From positions 1 to 36,060 of the forward strand of contig JAOAFI010000045.1 of assembly GCA_026416375.1 (NCBI GenBank): DNA of 36,060 nucleotides. Reading direction: 5' to 3'. The position numbers and the translations under genes are program-made. This document shows, piece by piece, positions 1-10,743 of the stretch. The DNA comes from Patescibacteria group bacterium. Lineage in GTDB: Bacteria; Patescibacteriota; Microgenomatia; UBA1406; GWC2-37-13. Within the stretch, counting starts at the first letter, position 1; every line of letters starts with the position of its first letter. A model generated the notes under the pieces. That model made no database searches and was not told the origin of the DNA. It was given only the letters and a program-made list of their open reading frames with translations.

Positions 1-592
1 TGCTAGAAGATATTGGAAAGAATATTTTTCTCAATTAGGAGTTAATCAAAATAGAAGAGAAAACAATGAAATACAAAAAACTCTTAATGCTGTTTCAAAA
101 TTTATTAGCGGAATAATTCTAAGATGGATTTTGTATCATAATTTAAGTCCTTATCATGGTTTTTTACATGAACCAACCAATTATCCATCATTAGTATACG
201 ATCTAATGGAACCTTATAGAGGATATTTTGATAAAATTGTTTTTGATATTTATAAAAAAAACATAGATTCATCAAATAATCAAGAAAAAAATCAAACTTT
301 GCTTTTACCTAAATCAATAGAACAAATAAAAGATTTTTTAGATAAAAAAATATATGTTCATTCAACTCGCCAAATAGCTACTTTTCAGGAAATTCTTCAT
401 GGAATAGTTTTAGCTTTAAGAGTTTATTTAAATAAAGAAACAAAAAGATTTATTGTTCCTTTTCCAGAAAAACCAAATGGAGGAAGGCCGATCAATGCTG
501 GATTTAAACTTTATGGACATACTGCTGGAGTTACTGATTTTTGGACTCAAGCAAAGAAAATAAGTCTTGATTTTTTAACAATTCAAGATTAA
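1..592 (+). CDS. cas1: CRISPR-associated endonuclease Cas1, C-terminal part (5' end outside window)
   Basis: This is the 3' part of cas1. The reading frame is open from base 2, so the real start lies left of the window; a TTG at 131 is only an internal codon. Cas1 is the metal-dependent integrase of the Cas1-Cas2 complex that inserts new spacers. The visible protein starts with ARRYW, which in Cas1 follows the catalytic Glu (just off the window). Then come GFLHEP with the catalytic His and SLVYDLMEPYR with the catalytic acidic residue, in the usual Cas1 order. The 3' end runs into the oppositely oriented cas12d and overlaps it by 62 nt. No cas2 or cas4 is visible. The family call is firm; whether the full gene is intact cannot be judged. 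Confidence 0.92.
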   Translation, partial: ARRYWKEYFSQLGVNQNRRENNEIQKTLNAVSKFISGIILRWILYHNLSPYHGFLHEPTNYPSLVYDLMEPYRGYFDKIVFDIYKKNIDSSNNQEKNQTLLLPKSIEQIKDFLDKKIYVHSTRQIATFQEILHGIVLALRVYLNKETKRFIVPFPEKPNGGRPINAGFKLYGHTAGVTDFWTQAKKISLDFLTIQD

Positions 593-3500
593 TTTTTTTA
601 TTGTTTAGATAATTTATGGTTTCTTCAAAAATATTTAAATCTTTTCTATCTTTAAAAATATCTTTTATAAAACCTCTAATTGACATAATAAAAGCAGCCT
701 GAAGATCAGCATCAAAGACATGACCGCAATCTTTAAAAGGACAAACAAATACAGCTGAATTTCCTCTTTCTTTTTTTATTTTTTTAAGAATTTTTTTATT
801 TAATTTTTTAAAAGAAATTAAAACTTCGCTTTTTTCAAGAGGTGGACGAGTGAAACTTTTAATTATTTTTATAAATTCATTTTTTGATTCTTTAGTTTTT
901 TCAAATTGATAATTTTCTATAAATTTATTATCTCTTGTATATCCATAAATAATTCCATAATTAGTTTTTATTTCAATTATATTTTTTATATTGTTACTAT
1001 TTAGTTTTTTTAAAACAAGAATATTATCTTTTTCAAAATTTTCGAATAAAGAATATATGCTTTTACCACAAGCAGAACAAGTATAACTTGAACCATAAGC
1101 TGAAAGATTTTTACCTATTTTTCCTGATTCAAGAAAATCAACTCCCCAAATATGTTTAATAACTAATTTGTCGGCGTCATTATCGGGGATTGTGTCGGAT
1201 TTTTTTATTGAATCATAAATCTTAGTAATTCTGCCACTTCCAGTTTCAAAATTACTAATCGAATATTCGTATATTATTGGTGATTGATATTTAATATATA
1301 AATTATGAATTTTATTTCTTATTTCGTTTATTGAATTTTCTCTTATTTCTTGAAGAATTGATGTTGATGATAAAAATAATCCTTTTTTGGCTCTTTCTTG
1401 AATTTTATGATAATGATCTTTTATTTTTCTTATATTTTTACTTTTTATGTAATTAGCTTCAATTATTTTTGGATTTTGTTGAGAAAAATCAGTTAAGCAA
1501 TAAGCTATTCCATACTCTCCAGCATCAATGCCTAAATAAAGTTTATGATTAATAAATTGATTTATTTTGATTTCATTTTCTTTTACTTGTATATTAAAAG
1601 GAATTGAAATAAAAATTTTTTTGTCTTTTACCTCAAAATTTATTTGGTTTTTTTCAATATCAAAATTTATTTTATTTTTAACTTCTAAAATAAAAGAAGG
1701 TTCAGATATTGATATTTTTATATTTTGCCAATTTTTGGGTCTGTATATTAATTTTTCTAAAAATTGAATCTGATAAAATGAAGACGATATCTTGAAAATT
1801 AAATCTTCATTAATTTTTTCTATTTTTATAGGAAATATCATTTCTTTATCTATTAAAAAATAAGAAGTTTTTTCTTCAGGATTTTTGATTTTTTTATATA
1901 CAAAATCATTATCTAAAATAACAAAATAATGATGATTTTTATTTATTACTTTTTTATTATTAATTATTAATTCTCTATAACTTATTTGATCATTTAAAAA
2001 TTTAATAATAATAGGAAATTTTTCTTGACTTTTTATAATTTGAAGAGTGTATTTATTTGTTTCAAATTTTTTAGAGTAAATATTAAGTGTTCCTTTTAAA
2101 TCAGAAAAAAAATATTGATTAATTATTTTATTAAATTCTTCATTATTATAAGATTCTTTTTTTTGAGTATTAATAAAAGAAATAACTTTTTCAAAGTTTT
2201 TAAATTTATCTTTTCCAATGTTAAATAATTTTTTTTGACTGTTTTCAATAAAAAAAGATATAAGGGATTTTGAAATTTCTAAATATTCAAGAGCTATTAT
2301 TGGATTGTGATAAAAATTTTTATTTTGATTTGATAATTCTTTAAGCAAAAAATAAAAATCATATAAAAAATCTTTTATTGAGTTTTGTTTTTCTATGTTT
2401 TCAACTGTTTTTATAATTTTTTTATTTTGTTTTTCATAGGAGTTTTTATAAAAAGCATATTTATCTGGTTTTTCAAATATTTTATCTATATTTTGATCTT
2501 TGTTTATATATTTTTTTAAAATTTTCTTATATTCTTTTACTAAATAATTTGAAGTTATTGTTTTTTTTGCTAATTTATCAAAAAAAAGATCAAGAAGTTC
2601 ATATATATTTTTTTTATAATTTGATGATTTTAAATTATTAAATTCTTCTAATAATTCTTTTACTATTTCAAAACCATTTTTTATTTTTAAACCTGTAAGG
2701 TTAATTATTTTTTCTAGGAATTCTTTTTTTGATTGACCATAAAAATTTATTGGCTTTTCAATTTTTTTAAATAAAAATCCAAAAATTTTATTATTTTTTA
2801 TTTGATCTTCTTCATTTTTTTTAAGATATTTTTGAAAATAATAATTAACATTTGTTTTTATTTCTGATAAATAATCTGAAAAAATAGGAAATTTTTGGGT
2901 ATTTTCAAAAATATCTTCATTTTTATCTATTAATTCTTTTAATGAATTTGATATTGATAATATTTTTAATTCTTCTTTTATTCTTAAATTTTCAATATTG
3001 ATATTATTATTTTGTTTTTTTAAATTATCAATTAATTTTTCTAAGCCTTCTTTGAAATTTTTATAATTTTCTTTTGATTTAATTATTCTATTTATATAGT
3101 TTGAATACCAACTTTGAATTTTACCTCCAAAAATAGAGCGATATTCTTGCCAATTTTGATTTATAAATAAAGGTTTTCCTAAATTTTTTGCTTTTTTTGA
3201 AAGAAAAATTAAAGCTTGTTTTATTTTTTCTATTTCTAAAGAATCTAAATTTACTATTTCTAAATAAGCATTTATAATATCATCATATTTTTCTTCTAAT
3301 AAAAAATTAAAAAAAATATTTAGATAATTTGATAAAGAATTAAAGTTATTGCCTAAACCTATTAAAGATTCAGTTATTTTATATTTATTATTATTATTAT
3401 TAATTTTTTCTAAAAATTCTTTAGCTAATTTTATTCTTAAATTTATTAATTCTTCTAATGTTATTTGTTCATTTATTTTTATTAATTCAGGGATGATAAA

Positions 3501-4166
3501 ATTTGTAATTTCTCCTATTTTGTTTTCACCCTCTTTTTTTAATAAATTTTTATCTATATTAAAATTTTCTTTCCAAAATTTATTTTGTTCGTTAGTTGTT
3601 TCTAAAATAAGACTCCCTTTTTCATCATAAAAAGAATTAATTATTAAATCAATAATTGATTTTGCTTCATTATTTAAAATTTTTTTTGACTTTTTATCTA
3701 TATAATTATCTTTTAATATATTTATTAAAAGATTTAAAAATCCTTGTTTTGATGATCCTGATCTTTTTGAATCGGAGAGAATGATTTTTTCAATAAATTC
3801 TCTTTTTTTAAAATATGTTTTTATTTTTTCATTAGAATTATCAAAAATTTTTTCTGCCGTTGTTTTTTCGTTTCTAATTATTTTTATAAGATCAACAAGT
3901 GTTTTTGATGTTGGTTGAAATATTATTCCTGCCTTAAGCGAATCAACCCAAAAATCTAAAAGACTATAATTTTTTTTGTTTTTATAAAAATCTATAATAT
4001 TACTTATTCCTCTGGTTTTTTGATCGTCGTTAATGAAATTATTAAAAATAAAATTATAATTATTTTCTTGATTTTTTTCGTAAGAAGTTAAAGGATATTT
4101 TATAGTTCTTATTATTTTTCCTTTAGTTTTCTTAATTCTTTCTATATGAATTTTATAACCTTTCAT
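531..4166 (-). CDS. cas12d: CRISPR RNA-guided nuclease Cas12d (CasY), type V-D effector
   Basis: A 1211-aa protein whose length fits Cas12d. The N-terminus (KGYKIH, IRTIKYPL, YSLLDFWVDSLKAGII) and the motif YEYSISNFETGSGR closely resemble CasY proteins as I remember them. A split RuvC nuclease lies in the C-terminal third: RuvC-I with Asp881 (LGIDAGEYGIAY), RuvC-II with Glu967 (IIYEYS) and RuvC-III with Asp1154 (FDADLQAAF). Between II and III sit CSACGK and CPFKDCGH, a probable zinc-binding pair. All three catalytic acids are present, so it should be an active DNA nuclease guided by crRNA plus scoutRNA. The middle part is Lys/Asn/Ile-rich, like the rest of this AT-rich genome. Translation starts about 12 nt after a structured leader RNA, with no Shine-Dalgarno sequence. 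The last codons overlap the end of convergent cas1. The array that would supply crRNA is not in the window. Confidence 0.95.
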   Translation of the reverse strand: MKGYKIHIERIKKTKGKIIRTIKYPLTSYEKNQENNYNFIFNNFINDDQKTRGISNIIDFYKNKKNYSLLDFWVDSLKAGIIFQPTSKTLVDLIKIIRNEKTTAEKIFDNSNEKIKTYFKKREFIEKIILSDSKRSGSSKQGFLNLLINILKDNYIDKKSKKILNNEAKSIIDLIINSFYDEKGSLILETTNEQNKFWKENFNIDKNLLKKEGENKIGEITNFIIPELIKINEQITLEELINLRIKLAKEFLEKINNNNNKYKITESLIGLGNNFNSLSNYLNIFFNFLLEEKYDDIINAYLEIVNLDSLEIEKIKQALIFLSKKAKNLGKPLFINQNWQEYRSIFGGKIQSWYSNYINRIIKSKENYKNFKEGLEKLIDNLKKQNNNINIENLRIKEELKILSISNSLKELIDKNEDIFENTQKFPIFSDYLSEIKTNVNYYFQKYLKKNEEDQIKNNKIFGFLFKKIEKPINFYGQSKKEFLEKIINLTGLKIKNGFEIVKELLEEFNNLKSSNYKKNIYELLDLFFDKLAKKTITSNYLVKEYKKILKKYINKDQNIDKIFEKPDKYAFYKNSYEKQNKKIIKTVENIEKQNSIKDFLYDFYFLLKELSNQNKNFYHNPIIALEYLEISKSLISFFIENSQKKLFNIGKDKFKNFEKVISFINTQKKESYNNEEFNKIINQYFFSDLKGTLNIYSKKFETNKYTLQIIKSQEKFPIIIKFLNDQISYRELIINNKKVINKNHHYFVILDNDFVYKKIKNPEEKTSYFLIDKEMIFPIKIEKINEDLIFKISSSFYQIQFLEKLIYRPKNWQNIKISISEPSFILEVKNKINFDIEKNQINFEVKDKKIFISIPFNIQVKENEIKINQFINHKLYLGIDAGEYGIAYCLTDFSQQNPKIIEANYIKSKNIRKIKDHYHKIQERAKKGLFLSSTSILQEIRENSINEIRNKIHNLYIKYQSPIIYEYSISNFETGSGRITKIYDSIKKSDTIPDNDADKLVIKHIWGVDFLESGKIGKNLSAYGSSYTCSACGKSIYSLFENFEKDNILVLKKLNSNNIKNIIEIKTNYGIIYGYTRDNKFIENYQFEKTKESKNEFIKIIKSFTRPPLEKSEVLISFKKLNKKILKKIKKERGNSAVFVCPFKDCGHVFDADLQAAFIMSIRGFIKDIFKDRKDLNIFEETINYLNNKKINLELLKNQDLFSLLESKNQ

Positions 4167-4174
4167 TTTTATTT

Positions 4175-4274
4175 GATGCGCTCAGGCAGTAAAGACTTTT
4201 AAAGTCTAAAGGCAACCTCAAAATTAAATAATTTTGAGGGGAAAACCACCTGAGCGCTTGGGTTAGGGACCCAA
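4175..4274 (-). ncRNA. Probable Cas12d scoutRNA, also forming the cas12d 5' leader
   Basis: A roughly 100-nt region between cas12d and its promoter folds strongly. Reading the minus strand: a 5' hairpin (TTGGGT/ACCCAA, 4274-4258) is followed by a closing stem of nine pairs (GCGCTCAGG at 4257-4249 with CCTGAGCGC at 4186-4178 as cited from the plus strand ends). This closing stem encloses a 10-bp hairpin (4239-4216, four-base loop) and a short AGACTT/AAGTCT hairpin (4207-4193), giving a three-way junction. The unpaired junction segment at 4213-4209 reads GCCTT. Published Cas12d repeats, as I recall them, end in AAGGC, its exact complement, and scoutRNAs of Cas12d carry an essential conserved five-base segment. 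Position next to cas12d, own promoter, fold and this segment together support a scoutRNA. No terminator separates it from the cas12d start, so read-through would make it the mRNA leader. A plain regulatory leader is the main alternative. Confidence 0.75.
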
Positions 4275-4278
4275 ATAA

Positions 4279-4307
4279 AATATATAAAATTTATCTTCAT
4301 ATGTCAA
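4279..4307 (-). promoter_or_regulatory. Promoter for scoutRNA/cas12d
   Basis: On the minus strand TTGACA (4307-4302) and TATATT (4284-4279) are separated by 17 nt, a near-consensus housekeeping sigma promoter. The predicted transcript start is near 4272, at the beginning of the folded RNA, so the RNA is transcribed in the cas12d direction. Confidence 0.75.
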
Positions 4308-4357
4308 TATATTATTATTTAATTAATTGACTTAATTAATTTTTAAAAAAATTCCTC

Positions 4358-4385
4358 TTGACAAATGGAAAAAATATAGAATAAT
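4358..4385 (+). promoter_or_regulatory. Promoter for the ATP-grasp gene pair
   Basis: TTGACA at 4358-4363 is followed after 16 nt by AATAAT at 4380-4385. This gives a 5' UTR of about 17 nt before the ATG at 4409. It is divergent from the scoutRNA/cas12d promoter; about 50 AT-rich bases with no other visible feature lie between them. Confidence 0.6.
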
Positions 4386-4408
4386 TTTTTTTATATTAAA
4401 AAAATAAC

Positions 4409-5836
4409 ATGAAAAAAAACACTTCAAAAAAGAAACAAAAAAAACCACCATTAGGAAATGGAAAAAATAATGAAATAATTGTCTACATATTTAATGTTGT
4501 TGAAGATGAATGGTCTTTTTTATCAACAGTCCAACCTATTGAAAAAAGATATGAAAAAATAAATAGTAGCAATATGGCAGCTGAATGTTATTTGTTTGCC
4601 AATGCTTCTGCTGATAATTTTTTTTATATCTCACCTATTGAAATTCCTGAAAATTTTAAAAATTATTTTTTAGAGGTAGTTGGTAAAAAAAATTTTGAAA
4701 TTTTTGTTCCTCAGATGAAAACTGGACTTATTTGTAAAGATTTATATACTGATAAATCATTATTTTCTGATTTGATAAATAAATTAAGAAGATATGAAAA
4801 AATAAAATTAATAAGTTATGCTGTTTCTCCTGAATTTTTAGAATTAAAAGAAAGATTAATCCAATTAGGATTAAATGTTATTACTCCTGAAGCTCCTGAT
4901 TTAGAAAATGCTTGGACAGTTAATTTTTATGGAAGTAAATCTGGTATAAGACAATTGGCTCAACAAAGTAAAGCTGATGAACCTGATTTTATTATGCCTG
5001 AAGGAATTATCTGTGTTGGCAGACTTGATGCAGCAAAAATTGCTGCTAATACTTATCTTAATGATAAAGGAGTAGTTTTAAAAACAAATAAAGGATCAGG
5101 AGGAGATGGAGTTTTAATTTTTAGAGAAGGAGAACTTCCAAATGATTATAAAATGTGTGAAAAAAGAATTTATGAACTTTTATCAGAAGATGGATATTGG
5201 GAAAGATATCCGATAATTATTGAAAAATTAATTAATGTTGATTATCGCTCATTTGGAGCTTTTCCAAATATAGAATTTAAAATTCATAGAAATGGCAAAA
5301 TTGAAATGCTTTATTATTGCGTAATGATGGTAACAAAAGAAGGTAAATATTATGGACTTGATATTCATGAGGATGTTTTAAATGAAAGAATTGCTACTCG
5401 TATTACTGATACAGGTTATTATATTGCGGAAAAATATGCAGAAGAAGGATACAGAGGGCATTTTGATGTAGATATGATTTCTGCGAAAGGCGGAAAAATA
5501 TATGTTTCAGAATCAAATACAAGAAATACTGGTGGGACTGATATATATAAATTAACAAAATATCTTTTTGGAGACGATTTTTTTTCTGATGTTTATGTAT
5601 TAAATAGAAATAATTATAAATTTAAAACTAAAAAAAATTATTTAACTTTTGAAAAAATTTTAGAGATAACAAAACCAATTTTATTTAATAAAAAAACTAA
5701 AGAAGGATTGGTTATTTCTTCATCCATTTCTATTATTGAAAATAAAAAACTTCTTTATACAATATATGGAAAAAATAAAAAAAGAGCTTATCAATTAGAA
5801 CAAGAACTTTTTAAACTTTTAGAAAAAATTAATTAA
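4409..5836 (+). CDS. ATP-grasp ligase, PGM1-like
   Basis: 475 aa. The protein starts with a Lys-rich tail, then a pre-ATP-grasp-like region, then an ATP-grasp core. Visible core features are a Gly-rich loop (TNKGSGGDGVLIF), a strand with PIIIEKL, and the metal-binding end GHFDVDMI followed by ESNTRNTGGT (the Glu-x-Asn type pair that binds Mg-ATP). ATP-grasp enzymes activate a carboxylate as acyl phosphate and join it to an amine or thiol. The pattern resembles peptide ligases of the PGM1 group, but the substrate is unknown. No signal peptide is seen. The next gene, also an ATP-grasp ligase, starts on the base after this stop codon, so the two are almost certainly co-translated and may act in one pathway. 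Family call good, function open. Confidence 0.75.
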   Translation: MKKNTSKKKQKKPPLGNGKNNEIIVYIFNVVEDEWSFLSTVQPIEKRYEKINSSNMAAECYLFANASADNFFYISPIEIPENFKNYFLEVVGKKNFEIFVPQMKTGLICKDLYTDKSLFSDLINKLRRYEKIKLISYAVSPEFLELKERLIQLGLNVITPEAPDLENAWTVNFYGSKSGIRQLAQQSKADEPDFIMPEGIICVGRLDAAKIAANTYLNDKGVVLKTNKGSGGDGVLIFREGELPNDYKMCEKRIYELLSEDGYWERYPIIIEKLINVDYRSFGAFPNIEFKIHRNGKIEMLYYCVMMVTKEGKYYGLDIHEDVLNERIATRITDTGYYIAEKYAEEGYRGHFDVDMISAKGGKIYVSESNTRNTGGTDIYKLTKYLFGDDFFSDVYVLNRNNYKFKTKKNYLTFEKILEITKPILFNKKTKEGLVISSSISIIENKKLLYTIYGKNKKRAYQLEQELFKLLEKIN

Positions 5837-9194: not shown

Positions 9195-9271
9195 AAAGGA
9201 GGTGATCCAACCGCTCCTTCCAGAACGGTTACCTTGTTACGACTTAACCCCCATCGCCGACAATATTCTCT

Positions 9272-9286
9272 CCCGACTAAGTCGGG
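9272..9286. repeat. 16S palindrome copy 1 (helix 44 tip)
   Basis: CCCGACTAAGTCGGG on the plus strand, about 1,431 nt from the 16S 5' end, at the distal end of helix 44. It forms a 6-bp stem with a 3-nt loop. Confidence 0.9.
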
Positions 9287-9550
9287 ATTCAAATATCATC
9301 GACTTTGTTGGCTTGACGGGCGGTGTGTGCAAGAGGCAAGAACGTATTCACCGCGGCATGACTGATCCGCGATTACTACCAATTCCGCGTTCATGAGGTC
9401 GAGTTGCAGACCTCAATCCCCACTGAGAGATGGTTTAAGAGATTTGCTTCATCTTGCGATGTTGCAAAGCTCGTTGCTCATCCCATTGTAACATGTGTGT
9501 AGCCCAGGGTATAAGGACCATGCTGACTTGACGTCTGCCCCTCCTTCCTT

Positions 9551-9565
9551 CCCGACTAAGTCGGG
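9551..9565. repeat. 16S palindrome copy 2 (helix 40 region)
   Basis: Identical 15-mer between the GAGACTG and GGAAGGAGGGG segments, where E. coli helix 40 has its short tip. Confidence 0.9.
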
Positions 9566-9865
9566 TCAGTCTCTTGTGACAGATTTAACACAAGACAGGG
9601 GTTGCGCTCGTTGTCCCACTTAAGGGCACTCCTCACGGAACGAGCTGACGACAGCCATGCAGCACCTGTCCCGATGTCCTTGCGGAAGATCTCATTTCTG
9701 AGACTGTCATCGGGATGTCAAACCCTGGTGAGGTTCTTCGGTTTGTATCGAATTGAACCACATGTTCCACTGGTTGTGTGCCTCCCCGCCAATTCCTTTG
9801 AGTTTTAACCTTGCGGTCGTACTCCCCAGGCGGTCTGCTTAACGGGTTACCTTCGCTACACCTAT

Positions 9866-9880
9866 CCCGACTAAGTCGGG
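9866..9880. repeat. 16S palindrome copy 3 (helix 26 region)
   Basis: Identical 15-mer about 837 nt from the 16S 5' end, at the variable tip corresponding to helix 26. Confidence 0.9.
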
Positions 9881-10245
9881 AAAAATGCGGCTAGCAGACA
9901 TTCGTTTACGGCTAGGACTACGCAGGTCTCTAATCTGCTTCGCTCCCCTAGCTTTCGTGTCTCAGTGTCAGTCATCTTCCAGGAATTCGCTTTCGCCACT
10001 GGTGTTCCCCAAGGTATCAACGCATTTCACTACTCCTCCTTGAGTTCCAATTCCCCTAAAGATGACTCTATTCTATCAGTCTTTTATCCCTTTCTATGGT
10101 TAAGCCATAGGATTTGAGATAAAACTTAATAGAACACCTACACGACCCTTTACGCCCAGTAAAACCGGATAACGTTTGGGGCCCACGTATTACCGACGCT
10201 TCTGGCACGCAGTTAGCGGCCCCTTTCTAGTAGAGTACTGTCAAC

Positions 10246-10260
10246 CCCGATTAAATCGGG
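10246..10260. repeat. 16S palindrome copy 4, variant (helix 17 region)
   Basis: CCCGATTAAATCGGG, a compensated variant: both changed bases keep the stem paired. It lies about 457 nt from the 5' end, in the V3 helix region. Confidence 0.9.
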
Positions 10261-10516
10261 ACTTCCTCCCCTACTACAGTAGTTTACACTCTGTAAGAGC
10301 TTCTTCCTACACGCGGCGTCGCGCGGTCAGGCTTTCGCCCATTGCCGACTATTCCTGATTGCTGCCTCCCGTAGGAGTGGGGGCCGTGTCTCAGTCCCCC
10401 TCTGGCTGACCACCCTCTCAGGCCAGCTACCCGTTATAGGCTTGGTAGGCCATTACCCTACCAACTACCGTGATAGGCCGCAGGCTCATCCCTTTCCGAG
10501 AAGTTACTCTCTTTAT

Positions 10517-10531
10517 CCCGACTAAGTCGGG
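10517..10531. repeat. 16S palindrome copy 5 (V2 helix region)
   Basis: Identical 15-mer about 186 nt from the 16S 5' end, in the helix 8-10 area. Confidence 0.9.
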
Positions 10532-10710
10532 AACCATGGACAATTACCCCGCCTTTCGGCGGACTATGGTCCAGAAAGGGGTAGATTCCTACGTGTTACT
10601 CAGCCGTCCGCCGCTGAATCCTAATCCATCTTGCGACTTCATAGGACTTCGCTCGACTTGCATATCTCAGGCACGCCGCCAACGTTCATCCTGAGCCAGG
10701 ATCAAACTCT

Positions 10711-10743
10711 TAAAAAAATCAGGCACGATTCTGCACCTGATGT
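10711..10743 (-). terminator. Terminator-like hairpin directly before mature 16S
   Basis: On the minus strand a hairpin (ATCAGGTGC/GTGCCTGAT, one wobble pair) is followed at once by seven T residues that touch the 16S 5' end. A second hairpin (10775-10746, GATTCAGATGCC side) precedes it. It has the shape of an intrinsic terminator, but as it sits in the rRNA leader it may instead be a pause or processing structure. Confidence 0.5.

Follow-up and report, generated by a model that had tools for sequence, protein, structure and literature searches.

A palindromic hairpin recurring at unrelated helix tips of structured RNAs in a Roizmanbacteria genome suggests copying between RNA genes

In the genome of a member of Candidatus Roizmanbacteria (Patescibacteria), one hairpin caps many unrelated RNA arms and some relatives repeat the pattern with hairpins of their own, which suggests that helix tips have been copied between RNA genes. 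The hairpin recurs at many non-homologous tips, its sequence depends on the genome, and the lengths of the helices are kept. It is a 15-nt palindrome (CCCGACTTAGTCGGG), recognized in the window, by which we mean the whole stretch of DNA analysed (the 36,060-nt contig JAOAFI010000045.1). The genome under study is referred to below as G000 and its relatives by other G-numbers.

The single 16S rRNA gene of the window is complete, lies on the minus strand at 9195..10717 (RF00177, 1349.9 bits, model positions 1-1533) and contains all five copies of the hairpin found in 16S rRNA. On the same strand, exact CCCGACTTAGTCGGG forms the tips of h44 at 9272..9286 (E. coli 1443-1457), of h40 at 9551..9565 (E. 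coli 1162-1174), of h26 at 9866..9880 (E. coli 840-846) and of h9, in V2, at 10517..10531 (E. coli 185-200), and the variant CCCGATTTAATCGGG forms the tip of h17 at 10246..10260 (E. coli 463-477). The E. coli positions come from an alignment to E. coli rrsB; the names h9 (V2), h17, h26, h40 and h44 follow the usual helix nomenclature. The preliminary description had reported four exact copies and one compensated variant at V2, h17, h26, h40 and h44, and both the coordinates on the minus strand and the assignment to sites agree with the gene as analysed here. Allowing up to three mismatches to CCCGACTTAGTCGGG, a search of both strands of the window returned 10 matches against 0.04 expected, a level equalled in none of 100 shuffles, so that chance is excluded as the origin of the 16S copies. 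The same search bore out that the window holds no copy outside rRNA. The compensated variant does belong to the 16S gene, but it is not unique to h17, since CCCGATTTAATCGGG recurs in a T-box leader of G000 (C7:1716-1730).

A count of the 15-mer over the whole genome and in 23S rRNA, proposed in the preliminary description, adds six exact copies outside 16S. The G000 genome (764 kb in 63 contigs) has 10 exact copies and none of a reversed control: four in 16S, four in 23S (contig C37, matched at full model length), one in a cobalamin riboswitch (C32) and one in the rplJ leader, where the hairpin stands in the opposite orientation (C18:15991) between the L31 gene and the genes for L10 and L7/L12. 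With up to three mismatches, the genome offers 23 distinct places. Structured RNAs account for 21, namely 16S rRNA (five), 23S rRNA (nine), 5S rRNA (one), T-box leader (two; the T-box leader match has an Rfam E-value of 3e-7, yet falls under its gathering score), cobalamin riboswitch (two), rplJ leader (one) and a stretch upstream of rho, possibly itself a structured RNA (fold z -1.85). The two places outside structured RNAs are a GTCATTCC..GGAATCT repeat (C25:3553) and, in a CRISPR-like array, a stretch that resembles a spacer (C12:124). Seventeen places match the degenerate pattern CCCG-N7-CGGG, each a near-palindrome of the CCCGACTTAGTCGGG kind; 16 of these lie in structured RNAs (five in 16S, seven in 23S, the others in 5S, T-box, cobalamin riboswitch and rplJ leader) and the remaining one in a GTCATTCC..GGAATCT repeat. 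Fourteen distinct 12-mers occur more than once in the 16S and 23S genes of G000, and all 14 overlap the hairpin; E. coli, the one control beyond the order for this count, has two repeated 12-mers in these genes, both from one 13-nt match unrelated to the hairpin.

Several features of the same genome were recorded alongside. A second, stronger cobalamin riboswitch was located at L132 1021-1192 (RF00174, 98.7 bits). The CRISPR-like array (C12:1-260, L132) is built of ~37-nt repeats ending in GTTTAAATTGGATTGCGAC and spacers of ~42 nt, one of which contains a CCCCGCTTAGGCGGG hairpin. The window itself encodes, at 531-4166 on the minus strand, a 1211-aa type V effector of the Cas12d/CasY kind (NCBIfam NF033951, 1140.5 bits); no repeat array was seen beside this gene in window positions 1-900 or 4100-4500.

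Relatives among Candidatus Roizmanbacteria, metagenome-assembled genomes included, were retrieved with a conserved neighbour gene, which by reading we take to be MreB/FtsA-like. The nearest are KatS3mg092 (G010) and SKYG101 (G018), both Candidatus Roizmanbacteria (Microgenomates), whose 16S identity to G000 (92% and 90%) marks a distance too great to isolate one event; a masked 16S tree groups G000 with these two. Within the order, 59 genomes had a 16S match, and 52 of them (44 complete, 8 partial) were aligned and seven left out. The five 16S helices occur in nearly all 52 aligned genomes at about the same length and with variable tips. Tips invariant in all relatives had been named in the preliminary description as an outcome that would speak against it; the relatives' tips in fact differ at the same sites. 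Exact CCCGACTTAGTCGGG stands at h40 in G008, G013, G014, G015 and G017, at h17 in G009 and at h44 in G010. Other genomes have hairpins of their own: G061 carries CCTCCGATTCGGAGG at h17, h40 and h44 and twice more in 23S (five exact copies, all five in rRNA), G003 and G019 carry CCCGCCTTTGGCGGG, or a sequence close to it, at three 16S tips, G069 has CCAGCTTAGCTGG at two 16S tips, and G026 has its own recurrent hairpin at two. At the nine 23S tip sites of G000, the sisters G010 and G018 bear mostly different hairpins, and the 23S tips of G017 include CCCCGCTCTGCGGGG twice, its inner part once more, and also CCCGCTTAGCGGG. As to gain and loss of single copies, which the preliminary description had proposed to follow, the scattered exact h40 tips (G000, G013, G015, G017) are readable as gains or as losses alike.

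Among 36 relatives, 12 carry exact CCCGACTTAGTCGGG, with 27 copies in all and no copy outside the family in that set. Known RNAs account for seven copies in 16S, two in 23S (G009), one in an FMN riboswitch (G009) and one in a cobalamin riboswitch (G017). The others were assigned by reading, and presumably comprise two in group-I-intron-like stretches (one in G005, one in G020 inside its 23S match), two in terminator-like hairpins, four in GTCAT-type repeats, six in other intergenic hairpins and two in tandem tRNA-Arg(UCU)-like units of G012 (C85; L021 / L135). In these units ACCCCGACTAAGTCGGGGT stands where the anticodon arm would be, and in tRNA-like units of G048 and G026 (L136, L162) that position is taken by a CCCGCC-hairpin. 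We further noted long insertions in G058 (L112), G080 (L110) and G006 (L071) at 16S/23S helix tips that elsewhere bear the hairpin characteristic of a genome (its house hairpin), and, in G021, seven copies of a dispersed repeat with nested hairpins, ACCCACCGTAT[CCCGCCTTTGGCGGG]AGTACGGAGGGT (L151, L157, L163, L171, L172, L174, L175).

Sharing of tips within genomes was compared with shuffles in which tips were exchanged between genomes site by site, a null that retains the preferences of each site. For the five 16S sites this comparison covered 51 genomes (G058 was dropped for the long inserts in its tips, as were tip segments shorter than 14 or longer than 48 nt). Pairs sharing at least 13 nt numbered 16 against 3.0 expected (p=0.001), with 11 against 4.4 in the genus only (p=0.003) and 5 against 1.0 in the genomes outside it (p=0.005). 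At least three of the five 16S tips were alike in 3 of 51 genomes against 0.106 expected (p=0.0005) and in 2 of 17 genus genomes against 0.355 (p=0.03); at the threshold of at least two like tips, the genus genomes showed no excess (3 against 3.5 expected, p=0.80), and the 16S-only evidence inside the genus is marginal. A broader comparison used 48 variable hairpin sites located automatically in 16S and 23S, a pair being two different sites that share at least 12 nt, in nine genomes (eight of the nine genus genomes with a 23S match, the partial G019 being left out, and G061). It gave 61 within-genome pairs against a null of 16.7 (sd 3.8, maximum 33 in 300 shuffles) and, when G000 was removed, 25 pairs against 8.5, in both cases with p=0.0033, the lowest value attainable with 300 shuffles; the sister G018 had zero sharing pairs. 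A count free of any choice of sites, in seven genomes with full 16S and full or partial 23S, gave G000 a value of 37 within the genome and at most 13.5 with any other, G061 10 within and at most 4 between, and G017 8 within and at most 5 between. For G006, G009, G010 and G018, the within-genome values do not top their highest between-genome values, and G009 is more like G000 (13.5) than like itself (5). Copying between helices, as put forward in the preliminary description, thus gains from these comparisons: the sharing is genome-specific and exceeds the level to be expected from the tips that relatives have at those sites.

A different route to the same pattern would start from a mobile palindrome of the REP kind, possibly akin to the GTCAT..ATCT repeats, which a transposase placed at helix tips and which was amplified afterwards. 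We regard this as unlikely, although it has several observations on its side: CGTC-tagged REPs without a known transposase are described in PMC3733652, Y1 transposases (PF01797, mostly open frames of ~220 aa) are present in 15 of the 20 genus genomes, and GTCAT..ATCT nested-hairpin repeats match in 18 of the 20, with 0 to 116 matches each (116 in G008, 13 in G000; reversed control near zero). Moreover, CCCGACTTAGTCGGG caps repeats of the GTCAT type in G005, G006, G008 and G017; the one such repeat examined in full starts with TGTC. An inserted element would, on the other hand, lengthen its site, and among the 14 rRNA tips of G000 no length gain was found (13 segments fall within the relatives' range, one is one nt shorter, and those at h40 and h17 equal the genus median). 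Nor do the RNA copies, with stems of 6-11 pairs and a 3-nt loop, fit a CGTC end tag with an 8-9 bp stem and a 4-5 nt loop; GTAG directly at the stem is absent from the flanks of 17 G000 copies, so that neither fixed tag stands beside the RNA copies. Y1 transposase has no match in G000 (assembly 93% complete) or in G003, both genomes with like tips, and RAYT/Y1 was accordingly rejected as the mover in G000. With no length growth, no Y1 and nearly all copies (21 of the 23 places) at helix tips of structured RNAs, not in spacers, the inserted element that the preliminary description had considered becomes less likely. The tips of the GTCAT..ATCT repeats vary and, among the matches listed, some equal rRNA tips of the same genome; also among the matches listed, GTCCCGCTTAGCGGGAC occurs in the repeats of G017 and G006, and CCCGCTTAGCGGG is found at rRNA tips of both. 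Exchange therefore seems to extend past RNA genes, a point in favour of a process acting on DNA.

Independent convergence, with many tips reaching the same sequence because short GC-rich stems and U-rich triloops are selected, appears rather improbable as the whole explanation. The loop of the rRNA copies is always UUA-like, and U-rich loops are widespread in 16S tips of the order (TTA 33 against TAA 2; TTT 44 against AAA 0); since they are general, the orientation reflects an RNA loop preference and not necessarily the copying route. RNA-mediated copying, considered as a cause of the fixed orientation, was dropped as needless, the loops being general and the rplJ leader copy reversed. Loop asymmetry is general in rRNA according to PMC8794818. 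A common sequence preference clearly contributes, as seen from these loops and from the recurrence of CCCGCCTTTGGCGGG in several genera. Taken by itself, convergence less readily accounts for the within-genome excess over shuffles that retain site preferences; sisters, too, carry different stems at the same sites, and in a phylum-wide sample of 379 genomes exact CCCGACTTAGTCGGG occurs in just five, G000 included (reversed control in 1). If the hairpin were the place where one protein or RNA docks on the surface of the ribosome, its exact repetition among 16S and 23S tips could be explained, and a shared contact of this kind had been offered in the preliminary description; against it stand the occurrence of the same hairpin on helices of riboswitch, T-box, 5S and rplJ leader (the last in opposite orientation) and the other sequences that near relatives bear at those tips. 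We consider it very improbable, and a shared ribosomal ligand was dropped on the same two grounds, the capping of non-ribosomal RNAs and the differing relatives. An assembly or binning artefact, conceivable in a genome fragmented into 63 contigs, is hardly credible: the 16S and 23S models are full-length, every copy has its own unique flanks, and independently assembled relatives give similar patterns, which in practice excludes the artefact raised in the preliminary description. The idea of an uptake sequence was set aside, the copies being too few (10 exact in 764 kb).

Overall, we consider it likely that the tips have been copied, by whatever route, and we lean towards the replacement of terminal hairpins of structured RNAs by copies that originate in other RNA genes within the genome, via ectopic template switching or conversion. 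The DNA-level copying step, its mechanism and its direction are what we infer from the distribution of the tips; no swap was caught between strains. In such an event, a strand that had stalled within a GC-rich hairpin would shift template to another hairpin, pair with its short arm (TCCCG-like), copy that tip and go back by way of the complementary arm; the site would thereby keep its outer stem and exchange its tip. Selection would retain swaps whose RNA still folds and has a U-rich triloop, and repeated swaps would make the peripheral tips of one genome alike, until point and compensated changes wore the copies down. The tips of G010 at h9, h17, h26 and h44 resemble eroded copies, and part of the pattern may represent an older, decaying burst.

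More tentatively, helix tips might be a mobile sequence class in Patescibacteria, moved without a transposase among rRNA, riboswitches, T-boxes, leaders and extragenic repeats, with a house hairpin per genome and with rRNA variable regions evolving partly by swapping and not by point change. Sites in rRNA are usually handled as mutually independent positions that share a common descent. Should the non-homologous tips of one genome overwrite each other, the V2, h17, h26, h40 and h44 regions would carry a concerted, non-vertical signal in these groups, which would bear on 16S trees and covariation analysis, and regulatory RNAs would have a new route to change parts.

No earlier report of one hairpin common to different rRNA helices was found in the open-access literature searched. 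In eukaryotic rRNA, expansion segments coevolve through compensatory slippage, and different variable segments become alike species by species. That process is simple-sequence slippage, whereas the G000 hairpin is a non-repetitive palindrome that also occurs in riboswitches and other unlinked RNAs. Among mobile palindromes, the GTAG- and CGTC-tagged REP elements, which in PMC3733652 include Neisseria dRS3 and Rickettsia RPE-4/6, resemble it in being short, GC-rich and genome-dependent and, for the CGTC class, in having no dedicated transposase; by that same account they are mostly extragenic and tagged, in contrast to the untagged G000 copies at functional RNA helix tips with no length gain. 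The GC clusters of yeast mtDNA are likewise short mobile palindromes, for which PMC4478555 reports more loop changes than stem changes and proposes RNA-mediated copying; they differ in being organellar, mainly intergenic and gained by insertion, and the double-hairpin elements of Allomyces, as cited there, are grouped with them as short mobile palindromes gained as insertions. Another close process is local template switching, tested on rRNA hairpins by Monttinen and Loytynoja (2022, PMC8794818), in which replication-linked copying creates and repairs perfect stems within RNA genes. It shares with the G000 case a copying process that shapes the hairpins of RNA genes; there copying acts within one stem-loop, with longer distances mentioned by these authors as a possibility only, whereas in G000 the hairpin is common to unlinked genes and contigs.
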